Positions 721-4,297 of a DNA stretch of 39,910 nucleotides are shown piece after piece (the first letter of the stretch is position 1; every line of letters starts with the position of its first letter). This stretch comes from Hyphomicrobiales bacterium. GTDB taxonomy: Bacteria; Pseudomonadota; Alphaproteobacteria; Rhizobiales; HXMU1428-3. The DNA is taken from positions 2,352 through 42,261 of the forward strand of contig JAEPQF010000004.1 of NCBI GenBank assembly GCA_017640685.1, written 5' to 3'. Position numbers and translations under genes: made by a program. The notes under the pieces were generated by a model. That model was not told where the DNA came from. It made no database searches and was given only the letters and a program-made list of their open reading frames with translations.

Positions 721-737
721 AAATTAGAAATTTTTAA

Positions 738-952
738 GGTTGCTTTCTCTCGCGGGCTATTCTGCCGCTGAAGCGGCTGGCCCTACGAGGTGCGGCGCAA
801 CGCGCCGGGCAGCCGTGCTGCCATGTCCCATTGCCTAAGCAGGCAATGTTCCTTCTTCGTATCGATCGTTTTTTGTCGTGTATAGGTCGCCTCCACAGTA
901 AAAGTACTATAATCGGTACTCTATTTGTGCCTTCAGGTGCCCACAAGCAACC
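738..952. other. GC-rich multi-hairpin element (structured RNA or MITE-like repeat)
   Basis: A block unlike its AT-rich surroundings. An outer 8-bp inverted repeat pairs 738-745 (GGTTGCTT) with 945-952 (AAGCAACC). Inside are consecutive perfect hairpins: 764-777 (GCCGC/GCGGC with a TGAA loop), 794-806 (GGCGC/GCGCC), 808-822 (GGCAG/CTGCC), 829-848 (CATTGCCT/AGGCAATG with an AAGC loop) and 903-920 (AGTAC/GTACT). A GGGC/GCCC pair (754-757, 780-783) extends the first hairpin. Open frames across it are low-complexity and not convincing as protein. It could be a non-coding RNA or an interspersed palindromic or mobile repeat. No second copy occurs in this window, and I do not recognise a known RNA family. 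Confidence 0.5.
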
Positions 953-1240
953 CGCTCTATAACCGATTAAGTGTGCTGATTTGTACACTTTACTCTTTCC
1001 TGTCCTTTTGAGTATTCTTTACTTTCAGAATTTATTTGTATTATTTGCATTGCCAGTTTGGGTTGTTTTGGAGGGAGCAGTTTAAACACAAGTGTGATGC
1101 AGTTATCTGATACTTCATTGATTTTGTTATTAAATACATGATTTTTGCGTTTGGTTTTTCAGTGTTTTTTACAATTAAATTCCCTTCCATTAACTATCAA
1201 ATCATTTGTAATTCTGATGCCTAAATATTGGGCGTTGGTG

Positions 1241-2290: not shown

Positions 2291-3247
2291 ATGATGACAC
2301 GCGCCGGACGCGCCAGGCCAGAACTTATTTATGGCCTGAGGAAAGTTACTGAAGATGCTGCGAAAGCTGCTTTTGACTGGATTGGTCGTGGTGACAAAGA
2401 GCGCGGTGATGGTGCAGCTGTTGATGCGATGCGCACAGCCTTACAACAGATTGAGATTGAAGGTTTGGTCGTTATTGGTGAGGGCGAAAAAGATGAAGCT
2501 CCTCAACTTTACAATGGTGAGATTGTTGGGCAACCGGGGGCTGAATTCAAAGCGGATATTGCCGTTGACCCTGTTGAAGGAACCAGCTATTTGGCGAAGG
2601 GTTTGACAAATGCTTTGGCGGTGATTGCCATTGCACCGCGCGGCTCAATGATGGACCCAGGCCCCGCATTTTACATGGAGAAATTTGCAGCGCCGGCTGA
2701 AGCCAAAGGCGAGATTGACCCGAATTGGTCAGTTGAAGAAAAAATCAAAACTTTGGCGAAATGCCTCAAAAAAGATGTTTCTGAAATTACGGTTTATGTA
2801 CTTGAAAAACCAAGACATCGTCAGATGATCCAAGAAATTCATGATGCAGGAGCCAGAGCTCTTTTGTACCCAGCAGGTGATGTTGCGGGCGCTTTGCTTG
2901 CGGCCATTCCAGATAGCGGTGTTGATTGTTTGATGGGAACAGGTGGCACGCCGGAAGGGATTATGTCTGCAGTTGCTATTAGAGCGTTGGGCGGAGAATT
3001 TATGGGCCGGATTGACCCGCAATTACAAACTGAAGCCATTGCTGTGAGAGAAGCGAATTTGGACACTACGAAATGGTACAAAATTGAAGAACTGGTTTCT
3101 TCTGATGATCTTTTCTTTTGTGCGACGGGCATCACAACAGGTTTGATGCTTGATGGTGTTGAGAAGTTTAATGGTGGGTTTCGTATGCAGACCTTGATGG
3201 TGATTGGCGAGACAAAAGAGCGCCAGGTGTTGACGACTTATACTTAA
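2291..3247 (+). CDS. glpX: Class II fructose-1,6-bisphosphatase (GlpX type)
   Basis: Hydrolyses fructose-1,6-bisphosphate to fructose-6-phosphate. GlpX enzymes in autotrophs often also cleave sedoheptulose-1,7-bisphosphate, so this one probably serves both regenerative steps of the Calvin cycle. The metal/substrate motifs are clear: GEGEKDEAP (63-71) and DPVEGT (93-98), and GGTPEG further on. Length (318) is close to the usual 320-340. The gene opens the cbb cluster in the place where a class I cbbF is usually found. Two ATGs are adjacent (2291 and 2294), both compatible with GGGGAGA at 2279-2285. Bifunctionality is inferred from context and not visible in the residues. Confidence 0.93.
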   Translation: MMTRAGRARPELIYGLRKVTEDAAKAAFDWIGRGDKERGDGAAVDAMRTALQQIEIEGLVVIGEGEKDEAPQLYNGEIVGQPGAEFKADIAVDPVEGTSYLAKGLTNALAVIAIAPRGSMMDPGPAFYMEKFAAPAEAKGEIDPNWSVEEKIKTLAKCLKKDVSEITVYVLEKPRHRQMIQEIHDAGARALLYPAGDVAGALLAAIPDSGVDCLMGTGGTPEGIMSAVAIRALGGEFMGRIDPQLQTEAIAVREANLDTTKWYKIEELVSSDDLFFCATGITTGLMLDGVEKFNGGFRMQTLMVIGETKERQVLTTYT

Positions 3248-3376
3248 GGTCTGACCGCCTAATTTTAATAATTAAGATGCGAGTTATGATTTCTAACGCA
3301 TTGTTTTTAAAATAATAAAATCAACTGGAAGCGCTGATTTTTCTAGCAAGCTTCCCGGAAACTGGGGACTGAAATT

Positions 3377-4297
3377 ATGCCAAAGATATTGGACCGTCCG
3401 ATTATATTGGGAGTTGTGGGAGATAGCGCAACTGGTAAAACGACGCTTTCTGCTGGTGTTGCTAAAATATTGGGTGAAGATCGTTGTACTGTTATTTGCA
3501 CAGATGATTATCATGCGTTTGATCGAGTTGAGAGGGCAGGTAATGGCATTTCTGCGTTAGACCCTAAGGGCAATTATATTGATATTTTAGAGCAGCATTT
3601 GCGTGCACTTCGAAAAGGTGAGGCGATATTAAAACCCATTTACAATCATGATGGTGGCACGCTTGATCGCCCTGAATATGTTAAGCCTCGTGATTATATT
3701 ATTATGGAAGGTTTGCTTGGGTACACAACACGGGCGATGCGCGATTGTTATGATGTGAAAATTTATCTCGACCCTGAAGAAGAGCTGCGTGTGAAATGGA
3801 AAGTTCACCGGGATACCACTAAACGCGGGTATACAGAAGAGCAAGTGCTGGCCTCTTTAGAAAAGAGAAAAGCTGACAGCCCTGCTTTTATTCGCCCGCA
3901 GCGCACATTTGCTGATATTGTCATTCGTTTCCAAACCCCAGAGAAGGGCGGCGATGATGCGCATTTGGATGTACGTCATATTCTGCGCCCAACATTGCCC
4001 CATCCAGATTTTTCCCCGCTTTTTGAAAGCCCCAGTAATAACGGGTTGTTGCTCGAATTAGCGCGAGATGTTGATGGCAAGCCTGTCGATGTGCTTGAGA
4101 TTGATGGGGCTATTTCAGATGAACACGCAACGAAAATACAGAATTTATTGTGGGATTTGATCCCTGAAGCGAGCCATTTGCGCGATCAATTAGGGCAAGT
4201 TGATGGGTCTTCATCAGTGAGTAACCCGCTTGCTTTGACGCAGCTTCTGGTGGCGTTCCACATGGTGAAAGCTGCGCTTGGTGTGCACGCAATTTAG
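3377..4297 (+). CDS. cbbP: Phosphoribulokinase
   Basis: Phosphorylates ribulose-5-phosphate to ribulose-1,5-bisphosphate with ATP, making the RuBisCO substrate. The P-loop GDSATGKT (15-22) and the DDYH motif (43-46) identify the PRK/uridine kinase fold. Later segments PIYNHDGGT and MEGLLGY, and the basic WKVHRDTTKRGY region, match PRK. The sequence style (VVGDSATGKTT, CTDDYHAFDR) differs from the SGAGTTT-type P-loop I recall for the canonical proteobacterial octameric enzyme. It looks closer to the cyanobacterial/actinobacterial lineage. It starts 129 bp after glpX with GGGGA upstream at about 3363. Function is near certain; the lineage comment is from memory. Confidence 0.93.
   Translation: MPKILDRPIILGVVGDSATGKTTLSAGVAKILGEDRCTVICTDDYHAFDRVERAGNGISALDPKGNYIDILEQHLRALRKGEAILKPIYNHDGGTLDRPEYVKPRDYIIMEGLLGYTTRAMRDCYDVKIYLDPEEELRVKWKVHRDTTKRGYTEEQVLASLEKRKADSPAFIRPQRTFADIVIRFQTPEKGGDDAHLDVRHILRPTLPHPDFSPLFESPSNNGLLLELARDVDGKPVDVLEIDGAISDEHATKIQNLLWDLIPEASHLRDQLGQVDGSSSVSNPLALTQLLVAFHMVKAALGVHAI

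Follow-up and report, generated by a model that had tools for sequence, protein, structure and literature searches.

A multi-hairpin DNA repeat dispersed in genomes of a Hyphomicrobiales genus and its orientation relative to replication

Genes and hairpins at the locus

The window, meaning the whole 39,910-nucleotide stretch of DNA that was analysed, holds a GC-rich block downstream of a gene at 145-720 (stop codon 718-720), which has no Pfam match, and upstream of a gene at 1305-1955 encoding a LuxR-type response regulator. G+C content is 67% across 751-850, as against 28% at 651-750 and 33% at 951-1050, in keeping with the original prediction of a GC-rich block in AT-rich flanks. Downstream of the regulator, at 2291-4297, a glpX-type bisphosphatase gene sits beside a phosphoribulokinase/uridine kinase-family gene. 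No sigma-70-type promoter match was found in 600-1320. An ORF lying across the element (734-988, minus strand, 84 amino acids; the set searched comprised ORFs of at least 80 amino acids) had no Pfam match, on which ground a protein-coding origin of the element was ruled out, and the earlier statement that it contains no convincing protein holds. Nor had it been recognised as a known RNA family; in Rfam no family reached its gathering score in the window, and two sub-threshold matches had E-values of 2.4 and 4.4.

The sequence 730-960 folds at -86.8 kcal/mol compared with -68.7 +/- 4.3 for shuffled sequences (z = -4.2), none of 200 shuffles being equally stable. Five hairpins in a row had been described, with stems, as read from the sequence, at 764-768/773-777, 794-798/802-806, 808-813/817-822, 829-836/841-848 and 903-907/916-920; all are present where they were placed, but the fifth is no feature of the family. 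The 8-bp inverted repeat proposed to enclose them (GGTTGCTT at 738-745, AAGCAACC at 945-952) likewise exists, but the closing helix is not in the repeated unit: when 192 flanked copies were scanned to 110 nt from the 3' end, two had a closing repeat of 8 bp, the window copy and a poly-T case. The right arm of the helix is part of a degraded small palindromic repeat, and chance alone would give about 0.35 inverted repeats of 8 bp in a stretch of 215 nt (a rough estimate, 215^2/2 x 4^-8).

It is practically certain that 746-874 belongs to a family of multi-hairpin DNA repeats dispersed in the genomes of a Hyphomicrobiales genus (Table 1), hereafter the big repeat, and the element is a DNA repeat, REP/RIME-like in kind, rather than an RNA gene. 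The unit is about 130 nt long, as judged from a 129-nt unit difference between two species and from the repeated tails in tandem copies, has four hairpins and often occurs head-to-tail; region 903-920 and the closing helix fall outside it. Aligned copies share the order TCTCTCACGG(G)CTATTC, P1, CCTMCGAGGKGCG, P2, P3, CATGTCC, P4, CTCCTTCTTCGT and a T-rich tail, and in many copies a T-run precedes the 5' end. P1 of the window copy has a T.T mismatch at 763/778. The middle pair of the mini hairpin is AT in 44 of 113 copies and CG in 62 of 113, next to a constant T.G pair in 106 of 113, and each of the seven pair positions of P4 has at least two Watson-Crick types.

Table 1. Repeat features and neighbouring hairpin of the window (positions of the window)
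Feature	Coordinates	Strand	Sequence or structure	Evidence
Big-repeat core	746..860	+	TCTCTC..CTTCTTCGT	nhmmer, model positions 1-120, E 1.1e-23 with a profile built from 115 copies, window copy included; sole window match
Hairpin P1	754..783	+	Outer stem GGGC/GCCC (754-757/780-783), TATTC bulge, inner stem GCCGC/GCGGC	Sequence, covarying pair positions
Mini hairpin	784..792	+	TAC-GAG-GTG	Family variants CTACGAGGTGC or CTCCGAGGGGC, coupled A-T / C-G
Hairpin P2	794..806	+	GGCGC-AAC-GCGCC	Nested palindromes in loop of other copies
Hairpin P3	808..822	+	GGCAGC-CGT-GCTGCC	Sequence, pairing analysis
Hairpin P4	829..848	+	CATTGCCT-AAGC-AGGCAATG	Scored terminator-like in consensus scan
3' tail of unit	861..874 (limit approximate)	+	ATCGATCGTTTTTT here, about CGTATNGYTRGTTTTTGTTT in family (by eye)	Tails of other copies, head-to-tail junctions
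Small palindromic repeat, degraded copy	927..956	+	GYGCTTCAGGTTGCCCACnnGCAACCGCRC type (by eye)	Regex match 934-935, at most 3 mismatches
Terminator-like hairpin	969..990	+	AAGTGTGC-TGATTT-GTACACTT	Terminator scan, alignment with G004 and G003

The gene at 145-720 and the LuxR-type regulator are adjacent in six relatives (G002-G007), whilst in G001 the best match to the flanking gene was distant and no ortholog was assigned. In all six relatives with both flanking genes the repeat was absent from the orthologous site (profile search, E up to 1). The two relatives aligned here (G004 and G003) retain the stop codon and the hairpin at 969-990 with a shorter interval between them, and the 26 bases at 970-995 are identical in both. 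The window repeat sits between the upstream stop codon and this hairpin, where the upstream transcript probably has its native end. Since near and distant relatives are both empty, the simpler reading of the comparison is that the repeat would have been gained at this site in the window's lineage.

Copies, pairing and mosaic structure

In its own genome (3.5 Mb in 230 contigs) the query 700-1000 matched at least 44 places, with 40 of 139 candidates scored, and every one of the eight genus genomes, its own included, gave matches; at most 19 candidates were scored per genome, and these counts are lower bounds. Exact 5' motifs numbered 58 in G000, 98 in G002, 70 in G003 and 93 in G004, the repeat-rich assemblies, and 8 in G001, 9 in G005, 0 in G006 and 4 in G007, the repeat-poor ones. 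All genomes are in contigs, and the named ones, Methyloligella sp. DHS20C07 (G004), Rhodomicrobium sp. DHS20C08 (G005), OFTM213 (G003) and OFTM288 (G007) among them, are metagenome-assembled genomes (MAGs). Between contigs of one genome density differs about tenfold: C14 has 9 motifs in 94 kb, C3 has 4 in 397 kb. In other families of the order weak matches occurred in at least one of 33 genomes, so that the spread beyond the genus is a lower bound, and the left module was also present in MAGs named Cohaesibacter, Anderseniella and Alphaproteobacteria Dive100. In the Cohaesibacter MAG (L110, about 2690-2960) left modules form a tail-to-tail inverted pair within about 250 bp, which is REPIN-like. 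A blastn search of the plasmid collection with 740-880 returned nothing, and the phage collection held no match to the repeat.

The original prediction had offered two readings, namely a folded non-coding RNA of about 215 nt with a long-range helix, which one conserved locus with compensatory changes would favour, and a non-autonomous mobile or REP-like repeat, which several dispersed copies would favour. The second is supported, as a dispersed repeat, by the own-genome copies, the matches throughout the genus and the empty orthologous sites. For the first, compensatory changes are present but the locus is not conserved, the unit ends near 874 and the helix is unconserved; pairing and orientation, described below, also speak against it.

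Pairing was analysed in a set of 195 regex matches (59 from the own genome and 136 from the named genomes), of which 130 were 105-145 nt long; 15 of these were discarded on manual inspection (false matches, damaged copies, nested or overlapping ones), 115 were kept and 113 could be parsed by anchors. Across P1-P4, 22 of 27 pair positions had at least two Watson-Crick types, each in at least three copies, one of the 22 (the third pair of the outer P1 stem) reflecting stem length and not substitution. About 90% of 3,016 pair cells were Watson-Crick, with the P2 register picked for maximal pairs and the inner P3 pairs just 57-73% Watson-Crick, and variable positions lay well above arms shuffled among copies. 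A transcript under selection is expected to favour G.U over A.C; the cells included 49 G.T and 69 A.C, and G.T shows no such excess. The constant T.G pair of the mini hairpin and small leanings in minimum-energy folds go the other way: in these folds G-U made up 7.0% of pairs on the sense strand versus 5.0% on the other strand, and fold energies were -49.9 versus -49.5, the sense strand being lower in 69 copies versus 44 (p 0.08). RNAalifold on a MAFFT alignment of the 115 copies gave no useful consensus, because swapped hairpins misalign, and the anchor-based pairing was used instead.

The copies are highly variable in sequence, and their hairpin types mostly reassort. The types of P1, the mini hairpin, P3 and P4 were independent of one another in five of six comparisons, the exception being P1 and the mini hairpin (p 0.012). 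Aligned DNA of G004 and G002 is about 90% identical, and at orthologous sites of the two some copies are near-unchanged whilst others share flanks yet carry different whole hairpins; at one site half of the unit is retained and the other hairpins are exchanged. Such whole-module differences at shared sites fit ectopic gene conversion. As we read it, the covariation would arise at the DNA level, with the arms of each palindrome changing together.

The small palindromic repeat was found at 295 places of the own genome at up to two mismatches versus none for the reversed pattern. A third palindromic family (GCGATCAGCTTATCYGTRCTCGC..GGGCTGATC) recurs inside the P2 loop (L023, L079, L083, L085, L118, L127 and others). 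Among 64 long copies of the big repeat, nested small palindromes or members of the third family lay within P1, P2/P3 or P4 in 56 and were unclassifiable in 8, a classification that is partly circular since the anchors need to be intact. In copies with nested inserts the outer stem was intact in 16 of 19 cases for P4 but in just 10 of 20 for P1.

Orientation, gene context and age of the sites

All 28 profile matches in 400 kb of G004 shared one strand, and all 30 in the 391 kb of G002 that are syntenic with it shared the corresponding strand (58 of 58 jointly, although the two regions share most sites and hence are not independent). Genes of the G004 region numbered 152 on the plus and 172 on the minus strand. 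When exact 5' motifs were compared with the majority strand of their contig, 92 of 93 agreed in G004 and 78 of 80 in G002 among those listed (of 98), and on contigs with at least two matches 17 of 17 agreed in G003 and 24 of 25 in the own genome. Inverted copies are few; L038 and C151 hold examples.

Third-codon positions on the element strand have more G than C and more T than A for genes of both directions, in the window as elsewhere, with GC skews for the two gene directions of 0.209/0.274 in the own genome and 0.129/0.190 in the named genomes, a count that left out loci with both orientations (1 of 37 and 5 of 80, respectively). In Methyloligella sp. DHS20C07 contig orientation matched skew in 14 of 14 contigs, sampled at repeat-bearing loci, and 88 of 91 matches were on the majority strand; on a third long contig (G002 C4) four of four matches agreed with skew. 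The smaller families share this orientation: in three regions 158 of 167 distinct places of small palindromes, whose three patterns overlap, were on the same strand as the big repeat and 9 on the opposite one, and for the third family the figure was 11 of 12. We conclude with high confidence that repeat orientation follows replication, the leading and lagging strands being assigned from skew in contig-level assemblies. The G-rich leading-strand sequence is also that of the lagging-strand template, and the sense strand of the repeat would accordingly be the one exposed single-stranded at the fork.

A palindrome of the TTTCCATAATATATATTATGCGAA type, which we take to resemble a dif site, occurs once per genome in all eight (e.g. 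G000:C169:15046); it was rejected as a terminus marker because the surrounding 300 kb of G002 C4 show no flip of skew or of repeat orientation.

Relative to genes, the two syntenic regions held 41 sites, not one of them inside an ORF longer than 450 nt. Of the 40 with both neighbours known none lay in a divergent gap, as compared with 100 of the 433 gaps in the background; where the gap was a tandem one, 16 copies ran along the gene direction and 12 against it. Elsewhere the avoidance of divergent gaps was weaker (among copies with both neighbours, 2 of 50 own and 10 of 111 named), tandem-gap copies ran with rather than against gene direction by 17 to 7 in the own and 33 to 29 in the named genomes, and regex matches overlapped an ORF of at least 100 amino acids in 8 of 55 and 19 of 139 cases, respectively, the ORF calls being crude, simple longest-frame ones. 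The 5' end of the repeat often lies no more than about 50 nt from a gene end and frequently a few bases past the stop codon. Orientation tracks replication far more than it tracks neighbouring genes.

Many sites are shared between species. Among G004 sites 14 of the 20 mapped also have a match in G002 and 6 do not, with one more unmapped, and two of those six (185541 and 245268) show repeat remnants in G002; conversely 14 of 17 mapped G002 sites have a match in G004, with four unmapped. The sole copy-number difference with near-identical flanks, at 224997-225319 of G004, could be explained by deletion between repeats. One empty site corresponds to an imperfect 14-bp direct repeat on either side of a 177-nt insert. 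A general target-site duplication was rejected: flanking direct repeats scoring at least 10 were found for 5.7% of copies versus 3.2% of mispaired flanks, and the top-scoring ones were tandem copies and small palindromes. A MITE was also rejected, with no general target-site duplication and no terminal inverted repeats, the ends (TCTCTCACGG..GTTTTTGTTT) differing by inspection.

No match to PF01797, the family of Y1 transposases and RAYTs, was found in the own genome or in seven of the eight genus genomes (own included), nor in any of six further entries that carried the left module or weak matches (completeness is stated for one of these, and one or two are possibly genus members). The matches in G004 alone are two (G004:C1:11499-15370; L180 and L181), adjoin a different repeat of the AATTACGGTGACAGTTTACTTA type, and lie in the first 109 kb of contig C1, where the big repeat has no match.

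Proposed route of spread and likeness to known systems

The best explanation, to which we give a probability of about 0.6, is a dispersed non-autonomous multi-hairpin repeat that would spread, folded, through the single-stranded lagging-strand template; the route of copying or movement through that template is put at 0.55-0.6. The unit would fold as single-stranded DNA on the lagging-strand template at the fork and would then be copied or moved, by an enzyme supplied in trans that would not be a Y1 (RAYT) transposase in today's genomes, along a route such as is known for IS200/IS605 elements and is thought to serve REPs. Ectopic conversion between copies, together with arm-to-arm copying within hairpins, could keep the palindromes near-perfect while their sequences change. 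More tentatively, a guild of distinct palindromic repeats may spread solely via the lagging-strand template by RAYT-independent machinery, the small ones inserting into the loops of larger ones.

Because most sites are old, with 14 of 20 shared, polarity could instead be maintained by selection and not made by insertion, in which case the repeats would be direction signals for replication, segregation or repair, KOPS- or AIMS-like but large and folded. KOPS are skewed relative to replication, as are the architecture-imparting sequences (AIMS). AIMS are 8-bp sequences (PMC5993296), versus the 130-nt folded mosaic units here. The very few exceptions to polarity, the old shared sites and the concerted renewal of hairpins would suit such signals, but we consider them rather unlikely: three distinct palindrome families of the same polarity are more simply explained by a common insertion route, copies vary greatly in sequence, and copy number ranges from 0 to 98 exact 5' motifs per genome with the roughly tenfold differences in density among contigs of one genome.

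Mobilisation of the unit, as an element of REP/REPIN type, by a RAYT that most genomes have since lost is improbable, as the missing PF01797 matches (7 of 8 genus genomes, 6 of 6 further entries), the position of the G004 Y1 genes beside a different repeat in 109 kb that have no big-repeat match, and a unit several times REP length all tell against this, despite the unit's palindromic, extragenic, high-copy character and its tie to the lagging-strand template, which is like that of IS200/IS605 elements (PMC6006769). GTAG-tagged REPs go with RAYTs, whilst CGTC-tagged REPs, which predominate in alphaproteobacteria, are described as being without a dedicated transposase (PMC3733652).

Mobility might also proceed through an RNA copy, the transcript being reverse-transcribed into the lagging strand. 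RmInt1 and other group II introns that lack an endonuclease behave in this way, and by analogy the same polarity is expected. The T-run before the 5' end, seen from the opposite strand as an A-run behind the element, and the one imperfect 14-bp flanking direct repeat point in the same direction, but with G.T not commoner than A.C and target-site duplication not general we regard an RNA intermediate as quite improbable. Highly improbable is a structured RNA acting in the transcript, whether an sRNA or a 3'-UTR element serving as stabiliser or terminator, for although the strong fold and covariation, the position often just past a stop codon, the terminator-like P4, the constant T.G pair, the slightly higher G-U share and slightly lower energy of sense-strand folds and the 17 to 7 excess along genes in own tandem gaps speak for it, replication sets the orientation (syntenic tandem gaps have 16 copies along the gene and 12 against it), G.T cells number 49 versus 69 A.C, the locus is empty in six of six relatives, and neither an Rfam match nor, in 600-1320, a sigma-70-type promoter was found.

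If the preferred lagging-strand route extends to a guild of repeats, chromosomes of this genus would be marked almost without exception in the direction of replication. Strand agreement of 97-99% within contigs (78 of 80 listed in G002, 92 of 93 in G004) suggests either that insertion takes place at the fork or that direction is under selection. The repeat bears on the question of how RAYT-less REP-like families, for example the alphaproteobacterial CGTC repeats, spread. RNA-type covariation without a G.T excess and with little respect for transcription may moreover serve as a filter in RNA discovery. Searches of open-licence literature turned up neither this family nor a polarity of this kind, and passages on repeat elements in a review of strand asymmetry mention no bacterial case (PMC10030826).

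With REPs, BIMEs and REPINs the big repeat shares a high copy number, a mainly extragenic position (with some overlaps of crudely called ORFs), palindromes and a mosaic make-up; it differs from these RAYT-associated palindromes in its length of about 130 nt, four hairpins, frequent head-to-tail arrangement and near-absolute replication polarity, and a Y1 match is missing in 13 of the 14 genome entries here. A REP is a palindrome of 20-40 nt with a conserved unpaired end tag, GTAG or CGTC, whereas the big repeat starts with TCTCTCACGG; the small nested palindrome is of REP-like size with no tag seen by eye. REPINs have been compared with the single-strand transposition of IS608, and their tandem arrays, described as running forward near 2 Mbp but in reverse near 4 Mbp, offer a partial precedent for polarity (PMC3116915). 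Like the big repeat, CGTC-tagged REPs are palindromic, occur across alphaproteobacterial orders and are described without a dedicated transposase, but they have a single stem of 8-9 bp, a loop of 4-5 nt and a CCA tail and mostly form head-to-head dimers (PMC3733652). A look-alike of these (CGTCATCCCGGGCCCGACCCGGGATCCA; L013, 1642-1672) occurs in the own genome, separate from the big repeat; CGTC-type repeats are too few here to serve as a control for polarity.

The RIME, AB/C and Sm repeats of rhizobia, of the same order, are intergenic elements without known function that have sequence and structure in common (PMC2573895), and Bru-RS of Brucella measures 103-118 bp (PMC2267715); the big repeat resembles them in kind, and the passages describing them mention no polarity. 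The IS200/IS605 elements IS608 and ISDra2 share with it both a reliance on hairpins and polarity relative to the lagging-strand template (PMC6006769), whereas the PF01797 searches gave no transposase for the big repeat, which has no defined ends. In the tie of its orientation to the lagging-strand template the repeat works like an IS200/IS605-type element, a likeness of behaviour and not of membership.
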